Below are positions 19,998 to 61,798 of a stretch of 64,000 nucleotides of DNA, piece by piece. The stretch is from Craspedostauros australis (Eukaryota; Bacillariophyta; Bacillariophyceae; Mastogloiales; Achnanthaceae), in assembly GCA_026770025.1 (NCBI GenBank), contig JAMXDE010000005.1:62001-126000 (forward strand), read 5' to 3'. The position numbers and the translations under genes are program-made. Position 1 is the stretch's first letter. Every line of letters begins with the position of its first letter. A model generated the notes under the pieces. The model saw only the letters and a program-made list of their open reading frames with translations, was not told the DNA's origin and made no database searches.

Positions 19998-20675
19998 ACT
20001 TGCAGGGAGTACGCCGTACATCATGCACTCGATCAATGCCACTCTGCCGGTGGAAAACTCTCTTCCATCGACATCACAGATTGTCATGTTCGTCAGTTGT
20101 TGTCTATGATACATATTGTGCAACATGGAAAACGAGGACAATGTTGGCGGCAGACTTTAACACTTGTAACAAACATTACGTACGCATTCTATAATGTAGA
20201 ATAATATAATATAGAATAATACAATACAGTTCACAAGAGACAACTGCTGTGCAGAGACTGAGCAGCCCTTTCGACAAGAGCATCGCAGAGCAGAATCGAG
20301 AACAACATCCCAGCAGGGTGCCAATGCCTGTGGACAGAGCATGATACGAGTAGAAGGGTATCGTCAGCCGATCCAAGATCGCAATTCGGTCGTTGTGACG
20401 TCAGCGATCACCAAACCACAATTCTCCTCCTCGCACAACAAACACACCCATTAGTCACAGCGAGAGAGAGAGGCATCCTGGGACACCAAGGATCCGATCC
20501 GGAGGCACAGCCACAGCCACAACCACAGCAACAACCACTGGCATTCCACTTTCTCCGTTGATACTCGTACTTCTGCTCTTCATCAAACCGAGCGCCATTG
20601 GCACTGGATCAACAGTCGGATCCCCGTTCGAACAGTATCGACAACAGCAGCGCCAGCTGCAGAAGCCGTGCAGCG
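19998..20675. other. Intergenic region, nothing recognised
   Basis: AT-rich from about 20160 to 20230, with short ATAAT-like repeats. From 20598 the next gene's frame is already open, but that part is taken as leader. Confidence 0.5.
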
Positions 20676-21818
20676 ATGACGACGAGAACCATCCTGCAGA
20701 GAGCGTCGCTGCTGACGCGGCGTGCACACTTGTCACCATGCTCCGCTTGGCAAACTGAACGCCCCAACAGCGGGCGCCGTACAATGGCTTCGCAACCAAC
20801 GGTGCACCAAAAGAAAGGCGATTTCGAGTACTGCGTGGATCTCGTGCAGAATCGCGATCGCGAGGCCTACCTGTGCGGGCTGCTGATGCCATCGAGTGCA
20901 CGGCGGTCCTACTTTGCCATCCGGGCCTTCAACGTGGAGTTGGCCTCCATCAAGGATAGCAGCAGCATGATGAATCGCCGTGGTGCCGACGATGCGTCAT
21001 CGGATGAGGGACCCAGCTCGTCATCGTTCGCGCTGCGCATCCGCATGCAGTGGTGGAGGGATGCGTTGGGCGTTGCCTACAGGGATGTGGATGGCAATGT
21101 AGACGGCGGTATGGATCCGCATGCCGAATCGAGCCAGGTGGGAGGATTGGGATCGATGAGCCACATCGAAGAGACGTCGATGCGCAATCCCGTGCTTCGG
21201 GTTCTGCGCGATGCTGTCAACGAGAGCGGGTTGACGCGGAGGTTCATGGAGCGATTGCTGGAGGCACGCGAGAACGATCTGGAGGTGACGCAGCTGGAGA
21301 CCTTGCAGGATCTGAAGCAGTACGCGGAGGCAACGTCATCGAGCCTCCTGTACCTGGCGCTCGAGACGACGGGATCCACCAACGAGGAGGCCGACATGTG
21401 CGCGCAGGAGGCTGGCGTGGGCATCGGCCTCACGATGGCGCTGCGATCGGCGCAATTCCGTTTCGTGCAGGGAGAATGCTCGATTCCCAAGCAAATGCTG
21501 CCTTCCGACTTTCCGTACTACAAGGCCAACACGGAGGAACCGTTGCAATCCTTCACCGCGGAAGAGCGGGAACAGCTCGAGCATGCTCTGCACACGATCA
21601 GCACCGAGGCCATGCACCATCTATCGCACGCAAGGGATCTGCAACGGCACGTGCCAAAAGGATCCAAGCAGTGTCTCCTGCCCGTGGTGCCCTCCATGAT
21701 GTATCTGTCCAAACTCGACAAGCTCAAATACAACATGTTCGACCCCCAGATGCTGGAGCAGGAACGACTCACGATGCTCTTCCAGCTCAGCCGAGCATGG
21801 CTGACTGGCGTGTTCTAA
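20676..21818 (+). CDS. NDUFAF6-like mitochondrial complex I assembly factor (squalene/phytoene synthase fold)
   Basis: A 380-residue protein. The start at 20676 is preferred over an in-frame ATG at 20598 because it begins with an Arg-rich amphipathic presequence (MTTRTILQRASLLTRRAHLS) suited to mitochondrial import. The mature part follows the non-catalytic branch of the squalene/phytoene synthase family: YCVDLVQNRDREAYLCGLL, YFAIRAFNVELASIKD, MQWWRDALG, LEARENDLEV and the TSSSLLYLALE helix. In true prenyl synthases the helices carry DxxxD pairs for diphosphate binding; here they are partly replaced. This fits NDUFAF6, which helps assemble NADH dehydrogenase. An acidic Ser-rich insertion lies at about residues 98-115. 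A plain prenyl synthase is the alternative. Confidence 0.85.
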   Translation: MTTRTILQRASLLTRRAHLSPCSAWQTERPNSGRRTMASQPTVHQKKGDFEYCVDLVQNRDREAYLCGLLMPSSARRSYFAIRAFNVELASIKDSSSMMNRRGADDASSDEGPSSSSFALRIRMQWWRDALGVAYRDVDGNVDGGMDPHAESSQVGGLGSMSHIEETSMRNPVLRVLRDAVNESGLTRRFMERLLEARENDLEVTQLETLQDLKQYAEATSSSLLYLALETTGSTNEEADMCAQEAGVGIGLTMALRSAQFRFVQGECSIPKQMLPSDFPYYKANTEEPLQSFTAEEREQLEHALHTISTEAMHHLSHARDLQRHVPKGSKQCLLPVVPSMMYLSKLDKLKYNMFDPQMLEQERLTMLFQLSRAWLTGVF

Positions 21819-35766: not shown

Positions 35767-38700
35767 CTACTCCTCTTCTGCTGCTGCCTCTTGATCCATC
35801 AATCGTTTCGCTTCGGCCACGATCTCCTTGCCCCGATACTCCCATTCCTTGCGATTGGCGCGTGCGTAGTTCAGATACTCGTCGCTCGACTTGCCAAACA
35901 CTCCGCAATCCTTCAGCTTCTTCGCCAGCGGGATGATGTAGAAGTCGAAGAACCCCAGCTCGCCCTCGTACCAACCATCCAGTGGGTTCGATTCAGCCCG
36001 ACCTGCCTTGTACGCGGCGTAGCACTCCTGCAGGAACCGCTGGTTCCACTTGCGATACACGTGCCAATGCTGCATGGTGTGCGCCACGTCGCTGGCCTGG
36101 ATCAGATGCTCGATCACGATAGTCGCCCTGCGGTTCGTGGCATCCTTAACCGATTCGTGATGGACCTTGTCGAAAGCCTTGTCCCATCGGTTGTTGCGCA
36201 GCTGCTTCAGCTCCTTGTCGACGATGTCGGTGGCCATGACGCCGTTGACGACAAGCTGCCGGAAGCGTTTCAGCTCCGTCGGTGTGGCGCAGATGCACGC
36301 CCTGAGGTCCCTGTATTCGTCAGACACGAACAGCTCCCACGACAGCGCCAGGGAGTTCTGTTCCGCGACAGATCTGTTGTTGTAAATCTTCGCGATCCGG
36401 GTGTTCTCCTTGACGAGCTGCGCGTTAGGGATGCCAGCATGATCCACATCGTGGATCATGGCCGAGAATGCGCAGGCGAGCTGGGTGAGCGGATCGGACG
36501 TGATGCCGTACGTGTGATCATGCAACGTGGCTGCGACGTCTCTGTTATCGCTCCTATCCCCATCGCCATCATTGCCATTGTCATCGTTGGTTGCTGTGCT
36601 GTGCTGTGTCGCCTGCTTGATTTCGTCGAGATCAGTAGGTGCCACGATGCGAGCCAGCAGCTTGACGACGGACATGGTGACATGCGACGCATGCTCGAAG
36701 TTATGGAACGCATTGTCTCTGTACATCATGGCGATGTTGGACACGAAGGATCGAAGCTGGTTCACGATGGTTAGATCGATGGTAACGTGATCAGGATCCA
36801 TCTCCATGCGCCCGACCTGTTGGTCGTATGCCGGTAGGTGGATGATCTCTTCGACTTCATCGAGCGGATGGAGATGGTTGGAATCGAAGTTGTCCACAAC
36901 TGCCGTACTCTCTTGGCCATGGCTGGAGTTCTTGTTCCTGGACAGCAACGACTGTGACGACTTCGGGGAAAGGGACTGCTGTTGCTGCTGCTGCTGTGTG
37001 GCCTCCCTACGAGCCACGATGTGTCGGATGATGTGCAGCAACATCTCGACGTTCCACTCCACCAACCGCGATGTCTTCTCTCGGTAGTTGATCATGGCTT
37101 TGGAATCGGTCCCTGCCGCACCTTGAGCATGCTTGCCGTGGCCCGATGTCTTTCCATCGCCTCCGGTCAGGTGAATGTTAATCTCCGAGATGGTACCCTC
37201 GCTCGTGACACTCTCCTCGTCGGATGAGCGCTTCGATGATCGGATCCAGTAGCTGTTGTGGCATGCGTTGGTCGAGTTTTGACAATGGGAGCGTGCAAGC
37301 ATATGCAATACAGGATAATGGATAGGCACAGGCACAGGCATAGAAGTAGTTGCAGCACCAACAGCGTTGATCGAATCGGTGAAAAAGGGGGATGGTGACG
37401 TGCGTGTGAGTCAATGGAATCCAAAGCACGTTCGAATGCAGTCATGCATGTTGCGTAAAACAGAGTGCTCAGAGTCCTGGACAGTGCTCGTACAGTGAGC
37501 AGATCGCACACCACACCCTATCACACCAAGTTCCCACTTACGTTTGCATCCTCCCCTTGCCTTTGGCCTCTACGGTGTGCTCGCGCTTCAACAACCAGGC
37601 ACCTTCCCCAGAGGCCTTCAAGTATTCCGCAGTCTCGGATGACACATGGATCCGACCGACCTCGCCCGTCTGCTCGATACGAGACGCGGTGTTCATGGTG
37701 TCACCAAACAGCTGAAAACGGGCCCGTTCTCCTCTCAGCACACCCGCCGTGACCGGTCCGGAGTGGATCCCAATGCGCAACGACAAGTCCGCCGTATCTG
37801 GACCATGCGTGATCTCCAGCTGCTTCGTCAGCTTGCGCGTCCGGCTGAGGATATCCCTTGCGAACCGCACCATCATGACAGCATGGTCACGTCTGGGATC
37901 AGGGATACCCGTCGCAGCGACGTAACAATCGCCGACAGTTTCCACCTTGAAGACCCTTCGTGCCTTGGCGACTTGATCGAAGGAGGAGAAGATTTTCTCC
38001 AGCAGCGTGAAGACTTGGGATGGTTCTGTGCAAGTAGCGTCATGGGGTGTATGTAGCGTGTGATGTCGGAGTTCCACGCGGCGGAGTGGATGGCCGTTGC
38101 CCATGATTGTTGGAGGACCCCAGTATCAATATGAGCCACAGTATGCGGGTTGAAACGAAGCAATCCAAAGCATAATCCAGAAAACGTGAGAAGGACGATG
38201 GCGAAGCAGCGGCGGCAGCACATCAGCAGTAGCAATGGCAGCAGCAATGATAGCAGCAATGGCAACAACAACGTCGGATATTAACGACAGTGCAATTCAA
38301 GCTCTCGGACAACACTACGGGCGCAACCGCTTACCTCGGACTGAGCTCCAGGCTGTGAAACCAGCGATGTCAGCAAACAGAATGGTCGTCTCCAGGAACA
38401 GATCGGCCAATGGCTTTTCGTTCGCCGAATCCTCCGACGTGTGTCCGCTGAGATAGTTCTTCAAGTTTGCGATGCGTTTGTTGGCTGCTGTCTTGCCATC
38501 GCCACCTGCGCTGTTGCGAGCAATCGCTTCCTGCTCCAACAATCGGCGGCGGATGTTCTTGGGAAACAAGGATGATACGATGGCATTGGATCTTGCAACA
38601 TTCTCCACCAGGTTTTCGTTTCGCTTGTAGACGAACAGGTCGTAGACGAAGAAAACGGCGATGACAAAGACGAAGGTCGCCATGACGATGATTCCGAACC

Positions 38701-40513
38701 TTTCGGGTGTGAAGGTGTCGTACCTGTCCTCAAATCTTTGCGACGGGTAGATGTGCATGGTGTACATGCAATGTCCTGGTTCGTTCGCAAGACGGGTCTT
38801 GTTCTTGGGCTGGGAGAGAGTGACAGACTTTTCGAACTTGTCGTATTTCGTGTCATGCTTGTCGCCTGTGGGGCATGCAAGTGTGAAGCACGAAGCACGG
38901 AGAATGTGTGGAGAGCAGAGGGTGGGTTAGATGGTGTTGGTGGAGAAAGTACGGTATTCGGACTCCGGAGGTGCAATATGTGTATGGTTGAAGGCATTGG
39001 TTTCTGCTTCTTTGTTCACAACATTAGGTCAGTGTAGCGAAGAGCTTGTGACTCACCATTTCCCAGAAAGACAGCGTCAGCTCCGATGATTTCGTATGTG
39101 AAGGATTGGTTGCATGTGTTCTTTACCACTGTGATGATACCCTCCACTCCATCCGGCAAGAGTTTGTTCAGAGATGCATCCCAGGCGACAGCGCCGCTGA
39201 GGATTGCGACGATCTCAGAGCTTGGATCGCCCACCTTCTTGTGCACTGGGAGATCGAAGTAGCTGTGGGGATGGCTGACATCAGAGTCGCCAAGTTGAGA
39301 GTGCATGGCTTCGTGTTCTTCTTCAGTGAAAGCGACGCCGAGAGAGGCATCGTAGTAGGCATCAATGTCGCTGTAAAGCAGTTCGTCACTAAGCTTGAAA
39401 AGGGCGTTGATCCTCGTTTGGTCATTTATCGCATCCCAGTTGATGAAACCGAAGGTGAAGGGAGCAGGCGCGTATTCCCACACTGGAAAGTGTATGGGGC
39501 GGTCATCGGCGCGGATGAATGATCCATTTCGTGCGAACTGGGATATGAAGGGGTGGAATCCGACGGGATTGAGATCGTCGAGGTTGCCATCCTCCAGCAT
39601 GTGGGCCTCCTCCACCAGATCGATGTGATGATGGATGGTCCAGTTCTCCCACGCTTCTCGCTGCTCCGACTTCACAGCGTGACTCAGTAGGAGTCCCTCA
39701 CTTCTAGATTCCTTCAACACAGTGGCTGCATTCTTGTTGAAGAATGGGATCGAGACAAATGGCCACTCTTTCCCGCTTCCATCGGTTTGCGATGAGATCG
39801 TGTCAGCAAAGCCGTGGTAGGCAAGATGCAAGGCCTCCTGCTGGTCCACGGCGGCATCGCCGATAGTTCTCGAGAATTGTTCGAACTGTTGATCGTGTTG
39901 TGTATTGTATGTTGTGTATTGTATGTTGTGTATTGCATGTTGTGTATTGTGCATCGCATGTTTCGTGGCGTGTGGTGTGTGAGGCGAGACGAGGCATTCA
40001 GGGATCGAGCAGATGGGGATGATGCATCCGAGAAAGTAGAGTATGCAGATCATGGCATAGTATGATACAGCATAGCACGATGGGACAAGAGGGAAGAGGT
40101 TTGGAGTGAGAGAGGTGTGCGCTTGTACAACGCAATGCCGCTGGCAAGAGACTCGTGGAAGCTTCACACGGACCGAGATGACGTTGACACTCGGCGAGTG
40201 ACGACGTTGTGACACGTTCATGGTTCGATGAACTCACCGCGGTCTCAAAGTTGTCGTTCTGCTCATCGTCGAGAGATCGGTAGGTGATCCACGTGACTGC
40301 GCAGGCTGTGATGAGCAACGATGCGGTCAAGAGAATACGCCAGATGCGGACCTTGATCGTATCCCAGCGAGAATCATTGCGAACTTCTTCGATCTCGTTG
40401 GTGCCATCATCAGTCGCAAAGGTGCTGTCAACGTCGTTTCCATCGCCGTAAGCAGACTGGGTCCCATCGTCCACGACGGGCATCGTTTGCCGGTCCATCT
40501 TGGGCAGATCCAT
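35767..40513 (-). CDS. CHASE receptor - class III nucleotide cyclase - phosphodiesterase fusion, copy A
   Basis: Five exons on the minus strand: 40513-40238, 39885-39057, 38865-38335, 38025-37542 and 37252-35767, giving 1,201 residues. All introns are GT-AG and in phase. TM helix 57-78; CHASE sensor about 88-400; TM helix 426-447; cyclase about 520-707; phosphodiesterase about 840-1170. The cyclase has metal-binding D534 (FADIAGFT) and D578 (VETVGDCYV), base-selecting E574, Q650 where guanylyl cyclases have Cys, and N657/R661. The phosphodiesterase has HNFEH (890-894) and HDVDH (974-978). E574 favours cGMP synthesis. A poly-Gln tract lies at 793-799. The last codon before the stop differs from copy B: a TAG removes 12 residues. 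The first ATG is a choice; the frame stays open upstream. Confidence 0.9.
39896..39951. repeat. 14-bp minisatellite in intron 1 of copy A
   Basis: Four tandem copies of TGTTGTGTATTGTA (last two with small changes) lie just upstream of the acceptor of the CHASE exon. Copy B lacks the array. Confidence 0.85.
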
Positions 40514-43074: not shown

Positions 43075-44152
43075 GGGAAGCGCGGTAAAGACACCACATG
43101 TGTCGATTTGTACTTTATTCACGCTTGAAGCGTGTTGTGCCGTGCTTTGTTCGTTCGGATCATCGACTCATGCGACTACTAGAGCACGCCTTTCCCGTGT
43201 CGGCGTGATGTTGCGCTTATTGATGTGCGTGCCCTGGGCGTTGTCCAGCACCATGTGAACGTGCCAATGACGTCCGCTTTGCTCTCCTTCCATCCCCTCG
43301 TGTCTGCTCCAAGACATCCCCATTCCCATACACGCGACGTCACATTGCCTCCTTTCCGCCGTGACAGCCCTTCGGCTCAATCGCCCCTTGCTTTTCAAGA
43401 GGGTCCTTGCTTCGCATTCGTTGTTCGTGCTGGTGCGTGTCTTCGTGCCGGAACAACTCTCGAACGCGTGGGGGTGTTTTTTTTTCGCGCCACAATTCAT
43501 TGCTGCGCAGCACTCCAACAAACATGCATCGTCTCATCATACTCTTGCCCAGTGTACTTCGGTTCTTCACTCGTCACTCTCCACACCCGTGACGAAAGTG
43601 AGCATGTTCGTTCGCAGGGGGGTAGGCAGCATCATGTCCTCCCTTTCCTGTCCTGATAGGCACGCGTCGTTGCGTGATGAACCCTGCTCGTGTCGCTCCC
43701 CTGCTCGTGTCGCTCTCATCGTCGGCTGTTGCTGTGAACATCCTCCCACCCCTCCGCTCAACGTGCGTGTGATTGCACAGTCCAGATGCTTCCCTGGTGT
43801 TTTCGTTCGTTTCATTAGGACACACTCGGATTGTTTTGCGCAAGCAACAGTGTCTGGTTGCCTAGTCCATCCTCTTGTGATCCAGGAAGGATGTCACCCC
43901 ACGTGGACGAAGCTCCTTGCCCATTCTCCACCACGGCTTTCCAGTGGGTCCGAGATGCATCGTTGGCAAATAGTGTTCCCCACAGTAAAGCAGAGCACTT
44001 ACACGATGAACCAGTCAGCGCGATGCTGTGCTTGCCTTTTTCAAACCAGGACACCAAACACGAACTCACTACTACAGACAAGGGAGGACATCAACAATTA
44101 ACATTTTATGCTTGTTGAATTCTGGCTATTTGTTACTGCTACGTGGGACGGC

Positions 44153-45182
44153 CTAATTAGTAGTGTTTGTGTGTTGTGCATCTGCTTGGGCGATGGCACG
44201 TTCGCGTGCTTCTTGCATGGCGACAACAACGTCAAACGAGGGGAAGCCGTTGCTCAGTTCAATTTGGGTGAGGATGGCAACCGCGTTGAATGCAAGGCGA
44301 TGCTTGTCCACGTGGTGCCGCCACTTCAGGTGCATGCATTGCCAGTGCTTGATTCGCCTGTTGACCGTTTCGTGGCGGCACCGCATGATCCCATCTGCAC
44401 GAAATGTTGGGGGAAAGACACACGGGTCCCCACGGTATCCGGCATCTGCAACGACGACTTCGTGCTGCCCTAATTTCGGTTTTAGTCCCAGACGGAAGAT
44501 CGAAAGATCGTTCAACAGGCCACACGGGAAAGGCCCATTCGCCCAAACAATCTCGCCAGTGGAAATCGCAACAGCCAACTCATAGCGCACACCAGAGGCG
44601 CGAAACTTGAACGAGTACCACTTCTGGCTAAACGGTTTCGGTTCGGTGATTCGCATGTCGGTCCCGTCAACAGTGACAAGAGCTTTTGCATCGTGACTTG
44701 CGCCAACGAAACGACGGTTCCAGACAATCTGTCAATTGGAGCGGTACCACGAGGAAGAAAAAATTAGAAGCTTGTGTGAGTGAATGCAGTGAACAGAATT
44801 TTGTGTCGCCGTTCGGTTATGAGATTTATTTCGTACTTACGATTCGGTCTTTAACGGTTTCAACGGCTGCCATCATAAGCCACATCCATTTGCGAAGTGT
44901 TTTTGCCGAACACTTGCACACAGCGGCTAACGCAGTCTCAGACACGTACAGACGAAGAAACGCGCACGTCCAAAGGAGATGTTTTGGTTCGGCCGCGCGT
45001 GGCAGAGCTCGAGCGTCTGCGAGCTCGTTCCACAAGATGTGCACGATGTCAGGATGCGTCCCAAACACAGACGCGAACTGTCGCAATGACTCCATGGAAA
45101 GATTGTTTGTAAGCATGCCTCTTGGGCGAGACCCAATCAGCCCGAAACCAACAGTCGCGAACGTTCCATGAGGGAGTAACAT
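44153..45182 (-). CDS. DDE transposase of the Harbinger-like element, copy A
   Basis: Two exons, 45182-44841 and 44728-44153, joined in phase 0 (ATC|GTAAGT and GACAG|ATT), encode 305 residues with no break. The N-terminal exon holds a helical region ending SAKTLRKWMWLMMAAVETV. The C-terminal exon is a DDE_4-type RNase H fold: the first Asp in LVTVDGTDMRITEP, FSQKWYSFKF, the second Asp in GPFPCGLLNDLSIFR, VVADAGYRGDP, and the final Glu in CRHETVNRRIKHW. This pattern is that of PIF/Harbinger and IS5-like transposases, which cut and paste DNA by a two-metal mechanism. All three acidic residues are present, so the enzyme could be active. Confidence 0.88.
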
Positions 45183-45888
45183 GTTTGTATTGTTGCGAAT
45201 TGTGAGCTCTTGCGCCTCCTTGAATTATCAAAATGAAGCGAAAACCAACAATGTCAACATTGTAACCGTTGAAATAGTAGACATAGTGCGCAAATAAACT
45301 GCAACTTGGTAAGGAGGAACCAGCATTTCTCCGCGAACTCTGCGTGTCTCCTGGTAGACCAGTTGTTGTCGCCCTGTCGCTGTTGGGGAGCTGATCACGC
45401 GCTGTGTTCACCAGGGCGTGCAAGTCGCAGAGAAGGCAAGACAAGCGTTTCGTTATCCCGCAACGTCACTGTCAATTGCGCTTCGTCGCGCCCAAGGGCA
45501 CCAAACAAGCCACAACCCAACGGAAAGCAAGGACACATTCTTGTATCCGTTGCCGAATAAAACATCATCATCTTGTGTGTATCCACGACTTCTTGGAGGA
45601 GGGCACGTGCGCGGTTCTGTTCGTCCTCCACTGTAACCAAGGAGCACTAAGCGCAGAGACATGTTGTTTGAAGCGGTTGGTCATCCTGCGCGATGGCTCA
45701 TCCCTGACTGCGCGGTGCTGTCCTCCTATTTACGGATCCCAGCAAACAGTTGTGCGCGGTATGATGAATGATTGACCTTCATTCATGAGTATACAATTAT
45801 GGACAGCAGGCTTCACCTTGAGATCCAACACATGTCGTGTCTAGGTCTTGTGCAAGTCGCGCTCCCGTCGAGCTCGTGTCCATGTCGG

Positions 45889-46038
45889 TTGCTCGTCGAC
45901 TCCCCTCGTTTGCTCGTCGACTCCCCTCGTTTGCTCGTCGGACGCGCCTCGTTTGCTCGTCGACTCCCCCTCGTTTGCTCGTCGATTCCCCAAGTTTGCT
46001 CGTCGATTCCCCAAGTTTGCTCGTCGATTCCCCTCAAG
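45889..46038. repeat. Minisatellite array 1 inside the transposon
   Basis: Seven tandem 21-23-bp units of the form TTTGCTCGTCGANTCCCC followed by TCG or AAG. One unit is a variant with GGACGCGCC after CTCGTC. Confidence 0.9.
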
Positions 46039-46351
46039 TGTGGACTATTTCTGTACTTTCGACACGTCCCATACGACAAAATCATTTACAGCAACATGTC
46101 GCAGTATCGTAGATGACAAGGTTGCGATGCAAAACTCTCATGTCAATTGTGTTTCCGAACGCAGCTTTCAATCAACATCAACCACTTCAGCTGAACAACA
46201 CAAGCTGCATGTCTCATCTGTCTTATCAATTTTTCATTTCTGCATCATACTGCAGGTAAAAAGACAACTATACCTGATGCATTAGCTTGATCAACTATCA
46301 CCCCCATGTCGCAGTGCCAAATCCGCGGTATTTTGGGCTGATTTAGTGTCC

Positions 46352-46511
46352 TTTGCTCGTCGATTCCCCAAGTTTGCTCGTCGATTCCCCTCGTTTGCTC
46401 GTCGATTCCCCTCGTTTGCTCGTCGATTCCCCTCGTTTGCTCGTCGGACGCGCCTCGTTTGCTCGTCGACTCCCCCTCGTTTGCTCGTCGATTCCCCAAG
46501 TTTGCTCGTCT
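46352..46511. repeat. Minisatellite array 2 inside the transposon
   Basis: Eight units (the last degenerate) of the same family and orientation as array 1, 313 bases further on. The unit order GGACGCG variant, then ACTCCCCC, then ATTCCCCAAG is the same as in array 1. Confidence 0.9.
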
Positions 46512-50758: not shown

Positions 50759-51571
50759 GCATTGGGATTGTACACATCCCGCCAAACACGCCCACTTGGC
50801 TAGGATATAGGCGTACGCCCACTAATCTAGTGCGCAATACTTGTTTCATACTCGTACCATCAATGATCTCCACCAAATGATAGACTTCTCTTCCAACGCA
50901 TGTGCCAAGATGGCAAAAGGACGACAAGACGTGAAGCTTCCCAGCAGTGTATTGGTACGTGTATGGATACACTTACACAGAGTACTTGTACGATGCGCTG
51001 ACATAGCTGAGCGAGCGCATCTCCTCTGCCTAGTCTGGGGCAAATGCGTGCCTTGTGCAGGATGTTGGGGAACTGATACCAATGCACTTTTCCTCCGCGA
51101 GAAGCACACTCCATCACTCTCGCAGAAAATACAGAGACACAAACAGACGACACAAACAAACGACACAAACAAACGAACAGACAAACAAACAAACAAACAA
51201 ACAAACAAACAAACAAACAAACGACACAAACAAACAGACAGACAAACGACACAAACAAACGACACAAACAAACGACACAAACAAACGACACAAACAAACG
51301 ACACAAACAAACGACACAAACAAACGACACAAACAAACGACACAAACAAACGACACAAACAAACGACACAAACAAACGAACAGACAGACAAACAGACGGA
51401 CATAGCCACCACCTGGTGACGACATGTGAGATGCAGGCACATGGTCGCACCTGCAAAAGCAGTAATCGACATGCAGGCAAACCTTGATCTAAGCATTCGT
51501 ACTACCATACATGCCAAACCACACTGTTTATGTTCGCCATTTCGCTTTGTTGTCGTGGTTCGTCGGCGTTC
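50759..51571. other. Intergenic region containing a large minisatellite
   Basis: Dominated by the tandem repeat at 51134-51397. Long frames on either strand over it are translations of the repeat. Confidence 0.7.
51134..51397. repeat. 13-bp minisatellite and (ACAA)n tract
   Basis: About ten perfect copies of CGACACAAACAAA occupy 51247-51376. They are preceded by an (ACAA)n run at about 51180-51222 and by a few irregular related units. The array ends about 175 bases before the start of duplication unit B. Confidence 0.92.
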
Positions 51572-51572
51572 T

Positions 51573-54500
51573 TCACTCCTCTGTAACAACAGCCATCCCC
51601 TCCAGACCCTGCTCCTCTTCTGCTGCTGCCTCTTGCTCCATCAATCGTTTCGCTTCGGCCACGACCTCCTTGCCCCGATACTCCCATTCCTTGCGATTGG
51701 CGCGTGCGTAGTTCAGATACTCGTCGCTCGACTTGCCAAACACTCCGCAATCCTTCAGCTTCTTCGCCAGCGGGATGATGTAGAAGTCGAAGAACCCCAG
51801 CTCGCCCTCGTACCAACCATCCAGTGGGTTCGATTCAGCCCGACCTGCCTTGTACGCGGCGTAGCACTCCTGCAGGAACCGCTGGTTCCACTTGCGATAC
51901 ACGTGCCAATGCTGCATGGTGTGTGCCACGTCGCTGGCCTGGATCAGATGCTCGATCACGATCGTCGCCCTGCGGTTCGTGGCATCCTTAACCGATTCGT
52001 GATGGACCTTGTCGAAGGCCTTGTCCCATCGGTTGTTGCGCAGCTGCTTCAGCTCCTTGTCGACGATGTCGGTGGCCATGACGCCGTTGACGACAAGCTG
52101 CCGGAAGCGTTTCAGCTCCGTCGGTGTGGCGCAGATGCACGCCCTGAGGTCCCTGTATTCGTCAGACACGAACAGCTCCCACGACAGCGCCAGGGAGTTC
52201 TGTTCCGCGACAGATCTGTTGTTGTAAATCTTCGCGATCCGGGTGTTCTCCTTGACGAGCTGCGCGTTAGGGATGCCAGTATGATCCACATCGTGGATCA
52301 TGGCCGAGAATGCGCAGGCGAGCTGGGTGAGCGGATCGGACGTGATGCCGTACGTGTGATCATGCAACGTGGCTGCGACGTCTCTGTTATCGCTCCTATC
52401 CCCATCGCCATCATTGCCATTGTCATCGTTGATTGCTGTGCTGTGCTGTGTCGCCTGCTTGATTTCGTCGAGATCAGTAGGTGCCACGATGCGAGCCAGC
52501 AGCTTGACGACGGACATGGTGACATGCGACGCATGCTCGAAGTTATGGAACGCATTGTCTCTGTACATCATGGCGATGTTGGACACGAAGGATCGAAGCT
52601 GGTTCACGATGGTTAGATCGATGGTAACGTGATCAGGATCCATCTCCATGCGCCCGACCTGTTGGTCGTATGCCGGTAGGTGGATGATCTCTTCGACTTC
52701 ATCGAGCGGATGGAGATGGTTGGAATCGAAGTTGTCCACAACTGCCGTACTCTCTTGGCCATGGCTGGAGTTCTTGTTCCTGGACAGCAACGACTGTGAC
52801 GACTTCGGGGAAAGGGACTGCTGTTGCTGCTGCTGCTGTGTGGCCTCCCTACGAGCCACGATGTGTCGGATGATGTGCAGCAACATCTCGACGTTCCACT
52901 CCACCAACCGCGATGTCTTCTCTCGGTAGTTGATCATGGCTTTGGAATCGGTCCCTGCCGCACCTTGAGCATGCTTGCCGTGGCCCGATGTCTTTCCATC
53001 GCCTCCGGTCAGGTGAATGTTAATCTCCGAGATGGTACCCTCGCTCGTGACACTCTCCTCGTCGGATGAGCGCTTCGATGATCGGATCCAGTAGCTGTTG
53101 TGGCATGCGTTGGTCGAGTTTTGACAATGGGAGCGTGCAAGCATATGCAATACAGGATAATGGATAGGCACAGGCACAGGCATAGAAGTAGTTGCAGCAC
53201 CAACAGCGTTGATCGAATCGGTGAAAAAGGGGGATGGTGACGTGCGTGTAAGTCAATAGAATCCAAAGCACGTTCGAATGCAATCATGCATGTTGCGTAA
53301 AACAGAGTGCTCAGAGTCCTGGACAGTGCTCGTACAATGAGCAGATCGCACACCACACCTTATCACACCAAGTTCCCACTTACGTTTGCATCTTCCCCTT
53401 GCCTTTGGCCTCCACGGTGTGCTCGCGCTTCAACAGCCAGGCACCTTCTCCAGAGGTCTTCAAGTATTCCGCAGTCTCGAATGACACATGGATCCGACCG
53501 ACCTCGCCTGTCTGCTCGATACGAGACGCGGTGTTCATGGTGTCACCAAACAGCTGAAAACGGGCCCGTTCTCCTCTCAGCACACCCGCCGTGACCGGTC
53601 CGGAGTGGATCCCAATGCGCAACGACAAGTCCGCCGTATCTGGGCCATGCGTGATCTCCAGCTGCTTCGTCAGCTCGCGCGTCCGGCTGAGGATATCCCT
53701 TGCGAACCGCACCATCATGACAGCATGGTCACGTCTGGGATCAGGGATACCCGTCGCAGCGACGTAACAATCGCCGACAGTTTCCACCTTGAAGACCCTT
53801 CGTGCCTTGGCGACTTGATCGAAGGAGGAGAAGATTTTCTCCAGCAGCGTGAAGACTTGGGATGGTTCTGTGCAAGTAGCGTCATGGGGTGTATGTAGCG
53901 TGTGATGTCGGAGTTCCACGCGGCGGAGTGGATGGCCGTTGCCCATGATTGTTGGAGGACCCCAGTATCAATATGAGCCACAGTGCGTGGGTTGAAACGA
54001 AGCAATCCAAAGCATAATCCAGAAAACGTGAGAAGGACGATGGCGAAGCAGCGGCGGCAGCACATCAGCAGTAGCAATGGCAGCAGCAATGATAGCAGCA
54101 ATGGCAACAACAACGTCGGATATTAACGACAGTGCAATTCAAGCTCTCGGACAACACTACGGGCGCAACCGCTTACCTCGGACTGAGCTCCAGGCTGTGA
54201 AACCAGCGATGTCAGCAAACAGAATGGTCGTTTCCAGGAACAGATCGGCCAATGGCTTTTCGTTCGCCGAATCCTCCGACGTGTGTCCGCTGAGATAGTT
54301 CTTCAAGTTTGCGATGCGTTTGTTGGCTGCTGTCTTGCCATCGCCACCTGCGCTGTTGCGAGCAATCGCTTCCTGCTCCAACAATCGGCGGCGGATGTTC
54401 TTGGGAAACAAGGATGATACGATGGCATTGGATCTTGCAACATTCTCCACCAGGTTTTCGTTTCGCTTGTAGACGAACAGGTCGTAGACGAAGAAAACGG

Positions 54501-56396
54501 CGATGACAAAGACGAAGGTCGCCATGACGATGATTCCGAACCTTTCGGGTGTGAAGGTGTCGTACTTGTCCTCAAATCTTTGCGACGGGTAGATGTGCAT
54601 GGTGTACATGCAATGTCCTGGTTCGTTCGCAAGACGGGTCTTGTTCTTGGGCTGGGAGAGAGTGACAGACTTTTCGAACTTGTCGTATTTCGTGTCATGC
54701 TTGTCACCTGTGGGGCATGCAAGTGTGAAGAACGAAGCACGAAACATGGAGTATGCATGGAGAGCAGAGGATGGGTCAGATCGTGTTGGTGGAGAAAGTA
54801 CGGTATTCGGACTCCGGAGGTGCAATATGTGCATAGTTGAAGGCAGTGTGATGGAGCATGCAGACAAAGGCTGTGTATGAAAGAGGGGAGCGCCCGTGGT
54901 CCGAAGGTGTGTAGGTTGAAGGCATTGGTTTCTGCTTCTTTGTTCACAACATGAGGTCAGTGTAGCGAAGAGCTTGTGACTCACCATTTCCCAGAAAGAC
55001 AGCGTCAGCTCCGATGATTTCATATGTGAAGGATTGGTTGCATGTGTTCTTTACCACTGTGATGATACCCTCCACTCCATCCGGCAAGAGTTTGTTCAGA
55101 GATGCATCCCAAGCAACAGCGCCGCTGAGGATTGCGACGACCTCAGAGCTTGGATCGCCCACCTTCTTGTGCACTGGGAGATCGAAGTAGCTGTGGGGAT
55201 GGCTGACATCAGAGTCGCCAAGTTGAGAGTGCATGGCTTCGTGTTCTTCTTCAGTGAAAGCGACGCCGAGAGAGGCATCGTAGTAGGCATCAATGTTGTT
55301 GTAAAGAAGCTCATCACCAAGCTTGAAAAGGGTGTTGATCCTCGCTGGGTTATTCATCGCATTCCAGTTGATGAAACCGAAGGTGAAGGGAGCAGGTGCG
55401 TATTCCCACACTGGAAAGTGCATGGAGCGCTCTTTGTCAGGGATGAATGATCCATTTCGTGCGAACTGGGAGATGAAGGGGTGGAATCCGACGGGATTGA
55501 GATCGTCGAGGTTGCCATCCTCCAGCATGTGGGCCTCCTCCACCAGATCGATGTGATGATGGATGGTCCAGTTCTCCCACGCTTCTCGCTGCTCCGACTT
55601 CACAACGTGATTCAATAGGAGTCCCTCACTTCTAGATTCCTTCAACACAGTGGCTGCATTCTTGTTGAAGAATGGGATGGAGACGAATGGCCACTCTTTC
55701 CCGCTTCCGTCGGTTTGCGATGAGATCGTGTCAGCAAAGCCGTAGTAGGCGAGGTGCAAGGCCTCCTGCTGGTCCACGGCGGCATCGCCGATAGTTCTCG
55801 AGAATTGTTCGAACTGTTGGTTAGGTTGCACAGATATTGCCGGCCACAGGTTGCATGTTTCGTGGTGTGTGTGTGAGGCGAGACGAGGCATTCAGGGATC
55901 GAGCAGATGGGAATGATGCATCCGAGTAAGTAGAGTATGTGGATCATAGTAGTATGGCACAGCATAGCACGATGGGACAAGAGGGAAGTGATTTGGAGTG
56001 TGAGAGGTGTGTGCTTGTACAACGCAATGCCGCTGGCAAGAGACTCGTGGAAGCTCCACAAGGACCGAGATGACGTTGACACTCGGCGAGTGACGACGTT
56101 GTGACACGTTCATGGTTCGATGAACTCACCGCGGTCTCAAAGTTGTCGTTCTGCTCATCGTCGAGAGATCGGTAGGTGATCCACGTGACTGCGCAGGCTG
56201 TGATGAGCAACGACGCGGTCAAAAGAACACGCCAGATGCGGACCTTGATCGTATCCCAGCGAGACTCGTGACGAACTTCTTCGATCTCGTTGGTACCATC
56301 ATCAGTCGCAAAGGTGCTGTCAATGTCGCCGTAACCAGACTGGGTCCCATCGTCCACGACGGGTATCGTTTGCTGGTCCATCTTGGGCAGATCCAT
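51573..56396 (-). CDS. CHASE receptor - class III nucleotide cyclase - phosphodiesterase fusion, copy B
   Basis: Five exons, 56396-56130, 55813-54985, 54707-54177, 53867-53384 and 53094-51573, give 1,210 residues. Splice sites correspond one to one with copy A. Architecture and catalytic residues are as in copy A. Copy B lacks three residues in the N-terminal tail and has a 12-residue longer C-terminus (ends GLEGMAVVTEE), because copy A carries TAG where copy B has CAG. The cyclase and phosphodiesterase regions differ from copy A at only a few positions. The sensor differs at about 15 of 50 residues between 217 and 266 (copy A numbering). Both copies look functional. Clustered divergence suggests different ligands or ligand affinities; that is inference. 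Confidence 0.9.
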
Positions 56397-56835: not shown

Positions 56836-59059
56836 GGGAAGCGCGGTAAAGGCTCTTTTTGCGTTGATTTTCGCTTTGTTCACGCTTGGGGTGTGTTGTG
56901 CGGTTTTTGGGTCTGTCGAGTCATGCACTGATGGGACTACTAGAGCACGCCTTTCCCGTGTCGACATGACGTTGCGCTTATTTACGTACGTGTTTGACAT
57001 GTCGTGCACTGTGTGCCAATGCCAATGATGTCCGCTTTGCGCTCGTTCCAGCCCTGTCGTGTCTGCCCCAAGACGTCCCCATTCCAGACCCACGACATCG
57101 CATCGCTGTCTTCTTATCAATACTGCAGTCCCGTACGACAGCCTTGCTTTCCGCAGAAATCTTGATTCGCAACAGCCGTTTGCGTTCTTCCAGTTCCTCC
57201 TCGTGCGGTTCCTGTTCACACCACGTTTGATTCAGGTGAAGGGCTCCCAACAATATGCGCCATACCTCGTGCTCCGGACACTCATTGGCTTTGATTCGCC
57301 AACTGCAGAACTCAACACGAGAAAAGGTCACATTCTTTTTGTTTCTTCCTCCCTGAGCGTCGCGTCACTCCCCAACGTTTCTCGCGATGTTCACCGCATT
57401 CTTTGCTGATGACCCATGGCGCTGGCATCACTACCGTTGTGGGCAGTGGTGGAGACCACGAACCCATCCCTCCGCTTAACGTCGTTGCGGTTGGGTGGCC
57501 AAGATGCCTTGCTGATGTTGCCCTTCGTTTGTCCATGTTTCAAACCGGGACTCTCTTGGGCAAGCATTGGTGTCTCATCGTCTCCTTGGTCCTCCTGAAC
57601 TGGCTATTCAGTGCGTCCCACATGCAACCACAACAAGTAGTCTTTCGAACCTCCAACAGCAAAACATAACACTAAATTGATTACCCCATAACCAAGACGC
57701 CCTAACAACGCTCACTCAAACAGGCAAGGGGGGCATGTGGGATGAACATTTTATGCTTGCTAAAGTTGGGCTATTTGTTACTACTAAGTGGGACAGGCTA
57801 ATTTGTGTGTGTGCTGTGCATCTGCTTGGGCGATGGCACGTTTGCGTGCTTCTTGCATCGCGACAACCACGTCAAACGAGGGGAAGCCGTTGCTCAGTTC
57901 AATTTGGGTGAGGATGGCCACCACGTTGAATGCAAGGCGATGCTTGTCCACATGGTGCCGCCACTTCAGGTGCATGCATTGCCAGTGCTTGATTCGCCTG
58001 TTGACCGTTTCGTGGCGGCACCGCATGATGCCATCCGCGCGAAAAGTTGGGGGAAACACACAAGGGTCCCCACGGTATCCGGCATCTGCGACGACGACTT
58101 CGTGTTGCACTAATTTCGGTTTCAGGCCGAGGCGGATGATCGAAAGATCGTTCAACAGGCCACACGGGAAAGGCCCATTCGCCCAAACAATCTCGCCAGT
58201 AGAAATCGCATCAGCCAACTCGGAACGCAAACCAGCAGCGCGAAATTTGAACGAGTACCACTTCTTGTCAAATGGTTTCGGTTCGGTGACTCGCATGTCA
58301 GTCCCATCAACCGTCACAAGAGCTTTTGCATCGTGACTTGCGCCAACGAAACGACGGTTCCAGACAATCTGTCAATGGGAGCGGTACCACAAAAAAGAGA
58401 ACCCAGTGTGAGTGAATGGAGTGAACAGAATTTTGTGTTGCAGTTCGGTTGTGCGAAATTATTAGTACTTACAATGCGATCCTTAACGGTTTCAACGGCT
58501 GCCATCATCAGCCACATCCATTTGCGAAGTGTCTTCGCGGAACACTTGCACACTGCAGCGAGCGCAGTCTCAGACACGTACAGGTGAAGAAACGCGCACG
58601 TCCAAAGGAGATGTTTGGGTTTGGCCCCGCGCGGGAGAGCTCGAGCGTCTACGAGCTCGTTCCACAAGATGTGCACAATGTCTGGATGTGTCTCAAACAC
58701 AGACGCGAACTGTTGCAACAACTCCAGAGAAAGATCGGTCGCAAGCATGCTTCTTGGGCGAGACCCAATCAGTCCGAACCCAAAAGCAGCGAAAGTTCCG
58801 CGTGGGAGTAACATGTTTGTGTTCTTGCGAATTGTGAGGTCTTTGTGCCTCTTCAATTATCAAAATCAGGCGAAATCCAACAATGTCAACAAGTAACCGT
58901 TGAAATAGTAGAAATAGTGTGCAAGTAAACTGCAACTTGGTAAGGAGGAAATGGTATTTCTCCGCGAGCTCTGCGTGACTCCTGGTAGACCAGTTGTTGT
59001 CTCCTTTTGCCGTTTGTTGGCAAGTTCCGCTCACGGTAACCTACGATCGTGGAAGATGG
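56836..59059. mobile_element. Harbinger-like transposon, copy B, left part
   Basis: The 15-bp terminal repeat GGGAAGCGCGGTAAA begins at 56836 and is followed by sequence homologous to the left 2.3 kb of copy A, including the transposase. The TA that precedes copy A is absent here because of the deletion in unit B. The element is not seen beyond about 59040, where copia sequence starts. The remaining 4 kb, if it exists, lies right of the window. Confidence 0.8.
57784..58814 (-). CDS. DDE transposase of the Harbinger-like element, copy B
   Basis: Two exons, 58814-58473 and 58368-57784, encode 308 residues with the same phase-0 splice sites as copy A. It is intact, with the same three acidic catalytic residues. 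It differs from copy A at scattered positions, and the C-terminus ends three residues later. A longer N-terminus from an in-frame ATG at 58856 is possible, but it is not shared with copy A. Confidence 0.87.
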
Positions 59060-59830: not shown

Positions 59831-61798
59831 TCATTCGAATGTTCTTGATGTGTCAAGGTACGACTTCTCATGTTCACGTTGTAAGTCGGCCTTGATGTTC
59901 TTGGTGAATCTGTCGCTTGTGTTTTGCTCGGATTTGACGAAAATGATCTCGATGGTTTTGTTGATTACCATGTTCCTCACGTAGTGATGGCGCACGTCGA
60001 TGTGCCGCGATCGTTGGGATGTTGATGGGTTCTTGGCGATGAAGATCGCTCCGATGTTGTCCACACGGACCTTGATCGGCGTCTTCACTGGGACGCCCAC
60101 ACTTTCGAGTAGCTGTACGACGAAGAAGATCTCTTTTGCCGCTTCGGAAAGGGCAACGTATTCTGCTTCGGATGAGCTGAGTGTGACGGCCTTCTGTGCC
60201 TTGGATCGCCAAAGGATTGGCACCTTGCACAGGTATAGGATGAATCCCCCTACGCTGATTCTCGTGTTCTTGTCTCCTGCATATTCGCTATCGCAGAAGA
60301 GCTCCATGTCCCAGCCGTCGTCGTCTGGACGCGCTGGATGGATCTTCAATCCATAGTCCTTTGTATCGATCACATACTTGATGATCCGATACATCTCCTT
60401 CATTGCGGCCTTGGTGGGCCCGATCAATACCTTGGAGAGTTCCCTCACAGGGTTCGCGATGTCTGGTCGCGAGTGCTTGATGAGGAAGAGTAGCATACCG
60501 ACGCCTTGGCGGTATTCGGCATGTTCTTCCGGTCCAACCTTCTGCAGTCCGTTATCTTCGGATGGTCGTACGATGATTTGACCCGGGGTTCCCGGTGTCG
60601 CATAGCGTTGCATCTTCTCAACCTTGGTTCCGAACTCTTCGATGAGATGTCGGATGAGGTGTGGTTGACGCAATGTCGCTCTAGTCTTGTCATGGTTCAG
60701 TTCGATGTTGCAGCTGAGGTAGTCTCCGAGTCCGCGCTCGATTGTCACCTTGAATTTTCTGCCTTGGATGTCCTTTAGGAATGTCTCCAGTGCCTTGGAG
60801 TCTCCGCAGCAGAAGCAATCGTCCACGTAGATGGCCACGATCGTGCTTCCTTCGTTCGTCTTCCTGTAGAACAGGCACGGGTCTGCTGCGCTCTGTTCGA
60901 AGTTGATATTCTTGAGGGTCGACACCAACATCTTGAACCACTGCCTGGCGCTCTGCACAAGTCCGTAGATTGGCTTGTGTAGGGTCAGGGCTTCGTCTGG
61001 TTGATGATCCATCCCATTGGGACAGTTCATGTAGATCTCCTCGTCGAGGTCTCCGTGTAGGAATGCCGTTACGACATCGACGAGTGCGCAGTCCATCTTC
61101 TTGATCAGCATGATCACCATCATGACTCGATAAGTCACGTCATGAATTACGGGTGAGTAGTGTTCTTGGAAGTCCACTCCTGCGATTTGTGAATAGCCAC
61201 ATGCAACGAGCCGCGCTCGATGTGTGCCATCACGTTTCAGCTTGAAGACCCATTTGCATTTGCAGCATCTGCGGCCGCGTGGGATGGCGTCTCGTTTGAT
61301 CTTGCTGTACACTTTGCGTGTGTCCATGGAGTCGAACTCCTTCTTGATGGCTGCTCGATATCCCTTTCGATGGATAGGGTCTGGATGATTGAAGGCTCCA
61401 TCGAATGTCGTTGGTTCGATGTGCTTCTCTGGTTCTTTGTTCTTGTCCTGCATCGACAATCCGATGTCGATCGCTGGTGATTCGGTAATGATTGCATTCA
61501 TTCCGTACAGTCCTGTTGTGCTATAGTGAGTGATCTCAATCTCTCCTTCATCTGCAATTTCTTCGTCATCTGTAGTTTCGTTGTTGGAGTCGTCGACCAT
61601 TTCGTCGCTGAGTTCATCACTGTCTTCATTGGATGATGGATCGCTTTCATATCCTTCTTCCTTTCGACCTCGTTCGTTGAAGTCTGCGAGCTCACGCAGA
61701 GCTCTAGGAATACTCTTTCCTGTAGTCGGTTTGGGATTAGCTTCTCCCTTCCTGCCTCGTGCTTCGTGACGTCGGATCCTCTCCTTTCTATCTATATA
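59831..61798 (-). CDS. Copia pol, reverse transcriptase and RNase H part
   Basis: The frame is open from 61798 to the stop at 59831 (655 codons). It has no ATG at its beginning; the first is at 61600. Reverse transcriptase spans about the middle third, with CKWVFKLKRDGTHRARLVAC, DVVTAFLHGDL and the catalytic YVDD in VAIYVDDCFCCGDS. RNase H follows, with DSEYAGDKNTRISVGGF, LSSSEAEYVALSEAAKE, RVDNIGAIFIAKNP and RSRHIDVRHHYVR, so all acidic catalytic residues are present. The frame is one base behind the integrase frame, with an overlap of only seven bases. It is either expressed by frameshifting or disabled by an indel. Confidence 0.9.
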   Translation of the reverse strand, partial: YIDRKERIRRHEARGRKGEANPKPTTGKSIPRALRELADFNERGRKEEGYESDPSSNEDSDELSDEMVDDSNNETTDDEEIADEGEIEITHYSTTGLYGMNAIITESPAIDIGLSMQDKNKEPEKHIEPTTFDGAFNHPDPIHRKGYRAAIKKEFDSMDTRKVYSKIKRDAIPRGRRCCKCKWVFKLKRDGTHRARLVACGYSQIAGVDFQEHYSPVIHDVTYRVMMVIMLIKKMDCALVDVVTAFLHGDLDEEIYMNCPNGMDHQPDEALTLHKPIYGLVQSARQWFKMLVSTLKNINFEQSAADPCLFYRKTNEGSTIVAIYVDDCFCCGDSKALETFLKDIQGRKFKVTIERGLGDYLSCNIELNHDKTRATLRQPHLIRHLIEEFGTKVEKMQRYATPGTPGQIIVRPSEDNGLQKVGPEEHAEYRQGVGMLLFLIKHSRPDIANPVRELSKVLIGPTKAAMKEMYRIIKYVIDTKDYGLKIHPARPDDDGWDMELFCDSEYAGDKNTRISVGGFILYLCKVPILWRSKAQKAVTLSSSEAEYVALSEAAKEIFFVVQLLESVGVPVKTPIKVRVDNIGAIFIAKNPSTSQRSRHIDVRHHYVRNMVINKTIEIIFVKSEQNTSDRFTKNIKADLQREHEKSYLDTSRTFE

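Follow-up and report, generated by a model that had tools for sequence, protein, structure and literature searches.

Clustered amino-acid divergence in the putative sensor of near-identical predicted guanylyl cyclase/phosphodiesterase receptor copies of a diatom

Introduction

To our knowledge, the receptors with which diatoms perceive pheromones and bacterial signals are mostly unidentified. The closest described systems are the guanylyl cyclase/phosphodiesterase (GC/PDE) fusions of Seminavis robusta, which have the same layout as the genes described here; according to the excerpts of the reports considered here, one of them rises steadily after exposure to the sex-inducing pheromone (PMC4726125), and upregulation is seen in all eight GC/PDE genes with a response in both mating types, each of which has this topology (PMC8027222). 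The corresponding excerpts of the S. robusta genome report place cyclases among the tandem duplicates, give a cGMP-biosynthesis family the highest pleiotropic signal, and count cGMP genes among the sexual-stage genes with diversified protein sequence (PMC7335047). The receptor for diproline is described in the excerpted texts as hypothetical (PMC4726125, PMC8027222).

Here, we compare copies of such a gene in a window of 64,000 nucleotides of the Craspedostauros australis genome (bases 62001-126000 of contig C3), with searches extended to the whole genome of 74.8 Mb in 90 contigs. Near-identical receptors that share the same signal-producing half and diverge in one stretch of the sensor are what would be expected if duplicates drift, or are selected, toward different signals. 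The window holds two such copies, A and B, and the same contig a third, C, which allows an old patch to be separated from a fast one; two copies cannot do so.

Results and discussion

Gene copies and their genomic setting

Copies A and B encode receptors of about 1200 residues in which an outside sensor and two hydrophobic helices are joined to a class III nucleotide cyclase and a PDEase_I domain. The splice model of copy A was inferred from the open frame and from GT-AG borders that are common to A, B, C and a more distant relative, D. The features are as follows, in window positions:

40513-35767, minus strand: copy A gene, five exons, 1201 residues
40238..40513, minus strand: A exon 1, start codon, N-terminus and first hydrophobic helix (60-78), from hydropathy, open spliced frame and GT-AG
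39057..39885, minus strand: A exon 2, putative extracellular CHASE-like sensor, residues 93-368, by a transitive link to Pfam CHASE
38335..38865, minus strand: A exon 3, remainder of the sensor, second hydrophobic helix (425-443), start of the cyclase
37542..38025, minus strand: A exon 4, bulk of the cyclase domain (Pfam Guanylate_cyc, residues 527-711)
35767..37252, minus strand: A exon 5, end of the cyclase match, linker, PDEase_I (889-1155), stop codon at 35769-35767
56396-51573, minus strand: copy B gene, same exon structure as A
56130..56396, minus strand: B exon 1, 9 bp less than A exon 1
54985..55813, minus strand: B exon 2, sensor
54177..54707, minus strand: B exon 3
53384..53867, minus strand: B exon 4
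51573..53094, minus strand: B exon 5

Pfam recovers both output domains in the one spliced chain of copy A (Guanylate_cyc, residues 527-711, E = 5.5e-49; PDEase_I, residues 889-1155, E = 5.7e-27). Its 19-residue hydropathy windows peak at starts 425 (2.72) and 60 (1.84), with the third at 1.37, and the two strongest hydrophobic stretches (60-78 and 425-443) flank the sensor. The C-termini differ: copy A stops at a TAG (35767-35769), where B and C have CAG (51609-51611 in B) and read through to a TGA, ending 12 residues beyond A. We rejected the view of the three copies as pseudogenes, as all three frames are open, and as alleles or haplotypes, as all three lie on one contig.

A DNA search of the same genome placed copy C (L002) at C3:151697-156405, on the same contig and 54 kb beyond A (start to start), with 97% identity across the whole query, and relative D at C1:1705793-1710133, with 76-77% identity in pieces. 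The sensor exon has at least 82 matches in the genome at E <= 0.001, and the best 30 of these make up the family alignment used below; other relatives sit in long open frames of about 1100 residues. The sensor search found no relative on viral contigs. Two further sensor exons of the family (L017 and L018) lie at C3:179476-184338, which gives contig C3 five sensor exons within about 87 kb. Sensor exons L019 (C22:581875-582702) and L020 (C22:612640-613467) are identical in all codons, and their sequences point to a very recent duplication or conversion.

Around these genes, the window carries pieces of a DDE_Tnp_4 transposase at 44156-44656 and 57787-58317 (24.7 and 25.3 bits, cut-off 24.8), which fall in duplicated flanks of A and B (44097-45370 and 57742-59001 are 89% identical). 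It also carries Copia-like retroelement frames at 59834-63978 (RVT_2, Pol_BBD and SH3_retrovirus above the cut-off, integrase core below it), a squalene/phytoene synthase frame at 20598-21815 (PF00494, E = 1.5e-38) and, by self-comparison, two short tandem repeat arrays at 45885-46510 and 51136-51402. Elsewhere in the genome, PF03842, the silicon transporter family, is matched 88 times (E down to 4e-249), a sign that the organism probably forms silica, as diatoms do, and in our view a large set for this family; 32 of the 88 are nearly full length, four of these 32 with internal stops.

A patch of clustered amino-acid change

The divergence between A and B is concentrated in one patch of the sensor exon, to which the third copy adds internal structure:

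39364..39513, minus strand: the divergent patch as it stands in A, codons 217-266, differing from B at 15 residues
55292..55441, minus strand: the patch in B, codons 217-266 in A numbering
39424..39513, minus strand: first sub-tract, codons 217-246; of 14 variable sites, 11 have A as the odd copy (B = C) and 3 have C
39364..39423, minus strand: second sub-tract, codons 247-266; all 10 variable sites have B as the odd copy (A = C)
39223..39255, minus strand: codons 303-313 in A, site of a third block private to C, in which 9 of 11 codons are changed

The original prediction, which placed the patch at 39370-39525 (approximately codons 213-264), put the difference at about 15 of 50 residues in 217-266, and this count is exact. 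Its picture of a nearly invariant catalytic side is borne out as well, with A and B differing at 8 of 761 residues in 441-1201, as is that of a conserved flanking sensor, since the three copies share every residue from 267 to 302. The remark that even the introns match holds for introns 3 and 4 (1.0% and 1.7% between A and B) and fails for intron 2 (5.2%) and intron 1 (11.1%).

When all 35 amino-acid changes between A and B were permuted over the 1201 codons, 15 of them fell within a 50-codon window in 0/10,000 trials, and permutation restricted to the 20 changes in residues 79-430 again gave 0/10,000; the same restricted test was weaker for A-C (186/10,000) and B-C (109/10,000). The 28 synonymous A/B changes are not clustered in the patch, their densest window starting at codon 112 (734/10,000). 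In codons 217-220, a 6-bp gain offset by a 6-bp loss is an alternative reading of the DNA of A and B; our codon-by-codon count takes this stretch as substitutions, and under the indel reading the patch keeps 11 amino-acid differences.

Denser protein change at equal silent divergence

We sorted every ungapped variable codon of exon 2 (codons 93-368) among A, B and C. Amino-acid-changing codons make up 15/50 in the patch and 8/226 in the rest of the exon (0.30 vs 0.035, p = 2e-7), an 8.5-fold higher density per codon, while synonymous codons are equally frequent in the two (6/50 vs 24/226, or 0.12 vs 0.106, p = 0.80). The contrast in nonsynonymous to synonymous change (N:S) between the patch and the rest of exon 2 is significant (p = 0.0016), also without codons 217-220 (p = 0.013) and with the C-private tract 303-313 left out of the comparison (p = 0.0006). 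By pairs, the N:S contrast gives p = 0.013 (A-B), 0.006 (A-C) and 0.034 (B-C), and the ratio of dN in the patch to dN in the rest is 17.7 (A-B), 6.0 (A-C) and 5.0 (B-C). The dS values of patch and rest are about equal for A-C (0.163 vs 0.172) and B-C (0.187 vs 0.172); only the A-B pair, taken alone, has a higher dS in the patch (0.185 vs 0.070).

A patch spared by conversion would be older than its flanks, and synonymous changes should therefore be denser within it. Silent density is equal inside and outside, which means that the patch has no greater age than its flanks. These counts speak for weaker or diversifying protein selection on the patch, and not for sparing by conversion. Two explanations had first been put forward, a change of ligand under selection and conversion that left this patch untouched; the second thus fails inside the sensor (synonymous 6/50 vs 24/226), and what stands of it is a likely homogenisation of the catalytic half. 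The strength of selection is a separate matter: omega in the patch is 0.80 (A-B), 0.52 (A-C) and 0.37 (B-C), none above 1, and the 16 nonsynonymous among 21 changes match the expectation of neutral drift (excess of nonsynonymous changes, p = 0.77). Equality of dN and dS, which had been named beforehand as evidence against selection, is nearly reached for the A/B patch (dN 0.147, dS 0.185), and positive selection is therefore not demonstrated.

A remote link to CHASE sensors

The CHASE label proposed for the sensor is not directly supported: Pfam CHASE has no match in exon 2 of A or B at E <= 10, and CHASE (PF03924) matches none of 20 sensor-family members at E <= 5. The link runs through an intermediate on contig C23 (L043, C23:667492-668208, within 667000-668600), a single-frame CHASE protein with a hydrophobic stretch after the domain, which scores 29.1 bits against Pfam CHASE (cut-off 25). 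This distant relative matches the sensor of A (E = 4e-19; BLASTP 7e-28, 24% identity, full length), and hhalign aligns it with the 30-exon family profile, built without that relative, at E = 7e-29. By these matches, the sensor appears homologous to CHASE via the C23 relative. True Pfam CHASE domains also occur at L041 (C48:344598-345188) and L042 (C14:347081-347653); read by eye, the L042 frame seems to continue with a histidine kinase and the beginning of a receiver, a layout resembling that of cytokinin receptors.

Sequence searches of the PDB with exon 2, the family profile, the C23 relative and L042 gave no sensor relative, and hhalign of the sensor family against AHK4 was not significant; mapping onto the pocket therefore relies on Pfam fragment coordinates. 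An AlphaFold model of exon 2, from an alignment of A and B only, reached pLDDT 30 and was not used. The mapping takes two steps, via the Pfam CHASE coordinates of fragments of the C23 relative and of AHK4. Against the CHASE model, the scores are good for three AHK4 pieces and under the cut-off for all four from the C23 relative, and A itself has no matching fragment.

So placed, codons 243-265 lie opposite AHK4 residues 255-280, with codon 243 at Asp255 and codons 263-265 at approximately 278-280 (±2 residues). Two alignments of the C23 relative to A are offset from each other by roughly one residue where the patch ends, and in both, a gap of two or three residues in A covers the position of Asp262. 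According to the excerpted structural report on AHK4 (PMC3491891), the residues that bond to cytokinin are Tyr250, Asp262, Leu284 and Thr286; Thr278 (wol mutation) belongs to the pocket lining, and Phe281, Arg282 and Thr294 are contact residues. These residue letters were verified in 3t4j at chain position = residue number - 125. The mapped segment holds Asp262 and Thr278, and the contacts Phe281 and Arg282 follow directly after it. By this remote mapping, the second half of the patch would fall on the pocket segment, whereas codons 217-223 map upstream of the pocket, and the first half is probably an indel-prone loop ahead of it. A pocket location of the patch is thus tenable for about half of it. 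That Asp262 falls in a gap speaks against cytokinin being the ligand.

Possible explanations: altered binding or relaxed constraint

We propose that A, B and C arose recently as copies of a diatom-type receptor guanylyl cyclase/phosphodiesterase, whose CHASE-like outside sensor would, to judge by its domains, bind a small signal and set the activity of the cyclase, and perhaps of the phosphodiesterase, inside the cell. Following duplication, the catalytic half and introns 3 and 4 would have been kept alike by exchange, or would have a younger origin, and the sensor would have retained an older divergence, seen at silent sites. The copies may now be changing what, or how tightly, they bind, with the same presumed output. 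With the second half of the patch remotely mapped onto the pocket segment, altered ligand or affinity under a constant output is the most likely reading of the sequences, and the explanation as a whole seems to us evenly poised between right and wrong.

Relaxed constraint fits the patch counts equally well. Under it, the patch would be a tolerant, indel-prone surface segment that drifts near-neutrally in some copies with the ligand unchanged, a possibility we take seriously and yet regard as doubtful. The omega values of 0.4-0.8 and the neutral N:S of A-B agree with it, as do the compensating-indel reading of codons 217-220 and the gapped family alignment there. Site rates in the family (28 relatives and A, without B and C) place 7 of the 15 variable patch sites at or above the 93rd percentile, as in a tolerant loop, and the variable patch sites are faster family-wide than the remaining ones (p = 0.0098). 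However, over the longer A-D distance the constraint on the patch is close to that on the rest (dN 0.173 vs 0.131, ratio 1.3), so the tolerance is not permanent; for B-D and C-D, patch dN (0.107) is lower than in codons 93-216 (0.163). Moreover, codon 243, which is slow in the family (9th percentile), has changed in A, with Asp in A and Asn in copies B, C and D. D is a weak reference for polarising the changes, being close to saturated at silent positions (dS 1.2-2.2, with one value not computable).

Against the preferred reading, altered binding, counts that the patch is ordinary when measured against D; that reading can also be set beside other paralogues of the family, whose close pairs were picked by eye from the alignment (the identical L019/L020 are uninformative). 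Enrichment of change in the patch is found in two of seven groups of close non-identical paralogues, namely A/B/C and L021/L023 (C43:234340 and C1:2810813). In the latter, 18 of 21 amino-acid changes fall in exon-alignment columns 92-198 (dN ratio 4.2), a block chosen after seeing the changes; silent changes are denser in the block too (N:S contrast p = 0.73), so this pair supports the place and not the cause. The other five groups, L017/L018, L014/L015, L032/L035-L037, L033/L034 and L024-L026, show no patch enrichment (dN ratios 0 to 1.7), which weighs against altered binding. More distant pairs have dN ratios of 0.6 to 2.3, and L031/L038 (ratio 1.6) is the only one among them with a significant N:S contrast (p = 0.033, uncorrected for the number of pairs).

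Probable exchange among the copies

Synonymous change among the copies is 3.8-fold rarer in the catalytic half than in exon 2 (22/761 in codons 441-1201 vs 30/276, p = 1e-6), and introns 3 and 4 differ by 0-1.7% among A, B and C, compared to 3.4-11.1% for introns 1 and 2. Exchange between copies, or a younger common origin, fits the near-identity of the catalytic half. Homogenisation is likely real, acting elsewhere than the patch and setting the catalytic half apart from the sensor.

Along the gene, the odd-copy blocks look mosaic: the 177 variable sites form 78 runs of odd-copy pattern, with so few runs in 0/10,000 shuffles (1/10,000 when confined to exon 2). Bursts of change in one copy also make runs, and the runs test alone is therefore no proof of conversion. 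The nearest copy switches as well, with 12 B-ancestral sites and 1 C-ancestral site in intron 1 and exon 2 before codon 303, and 1 and 12 after it. Exon 1 (A 4, B 2, C 1) does not enter this contrast, nor do the A-ancestral sites (1 and 5), whose inclusion gives p = 3e-5. This switch adds to the case for conversion, subject to the near-saturation of silent sites in D. Within the patch, copy C resembles B in codons 217-246 and A in codons 247-266 (11:0 vs 0:10, C-odd sites omitted, p = 3e-6). The C-private block at 303-313 looks imported to judge by its sequence: it is 33 bp long, 5 of its 9 changed codons are synonymous, and it directly follows 36 identical codons.

Two readings build on this mosaic. 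The first is a shuffling receptor locus, in which exchange would keep the cGMP half uniform and the blocks 217-246, 247-266 and 303-313, drawn from unseen donor alleles or paralogues, would be recombined per copy and conserved as distinct specificities, much as in immune or mate-recognition loci; we consider it unlikely. The second, which we hold to be improbable, makes the patch a patchwork of old blocks, imported as short conversion tracts from divergent paralogues or alleles absent from the assembly. Both the burst of changes in codons 303-313 of C, more than half of them silent and next to the identical residues 267-302, and the switch of C from B-like to A-like within the patch would follow from such imports. 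But whole-genome pattern searches that tolerated as many as 3 mismatches gave no donor, with codons 217-224 of A and codons 303-313 of C each matching their own locus alone, and the sharing between A and C in 247-266 is also compatible with common descent of A and C there. Compared with the other 29 sensor exons, codons 217-223 of A have their best match in B, at 62%.

That conversion homogenised everything except the patch, leaving it as an old unconverted remainder, is very improbable, since the greater likeness of the catalytic half and introns 3 and 4 and the higher A-B dS in the patch are outweighed, once C is included, by a silent divergence that is about the same inside and outside and a dN that is 5-6 times higher inside; the account survives only for the sensor as compared with the catalytic half.

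Comparison with known systems

The CHASE sensor of AHK4 (PDB 3t4j), in the excerpted report (PMC3491891), is like the present one in lying between two hydrophobic helices, and the Pfam CHASE family is reached here via a relative. Unlike AHK4, the sensors described here have no direct Pfam or PDB match, are gapped at Asp262 and precede a cyclase and phosphodiesterase instead of a histidine kinase output, and binding of cytokinin is not expected.

In Toll-like receptors, particular parts are homogenised by conversion. As excerpted, the account of mammalian TLR1 and TLR6 is one of tandem receptor paralogues of which parts are kept alike, conversion limiting their divergence (PMC2077338), and A, B and C resemble them in this. 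The TLR proteins themselves are unrelated to A, B and C. Among the large transmembrane cyclase families of Trichomonas and the tandem gene arrays of trypanosomes, we know of none with this sensor or with a fused phosphodiesterase. The likeness there lies in massive gene duplication, of membrane cyclases in Trichomonas and in tandem arrays in trypanosomes, as the excerpts describe it (PMC2914791, PMC1855330).

The closest likeness remains that to the S. robusta GC/PDE genes: within what the excerpted reports describe, both have two predicted membrane helices with an outside stretch between them, a cyclase followed by a phosphodiesterase in one chain, and several genes, and A, B and C are by sequence probably further members of this diatom family. 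What sets the present copies apart from those reports, as excerpted, is the patch contrast and the copy mosaic, both described here from sequence; sensor mosaics in the diatom GC/PDE family were not described in the literature titles or abstract openings searched. Family expansion and diversification are already in print, in the parts of the literature considered, and the patch adds a clearly resolved example of copies whose sensors diverge while their output half stays shared. With three copies, one output half and few, mapped sensor differences, A, B and C form a natural set for domain swaps aimed at finding the ligand.
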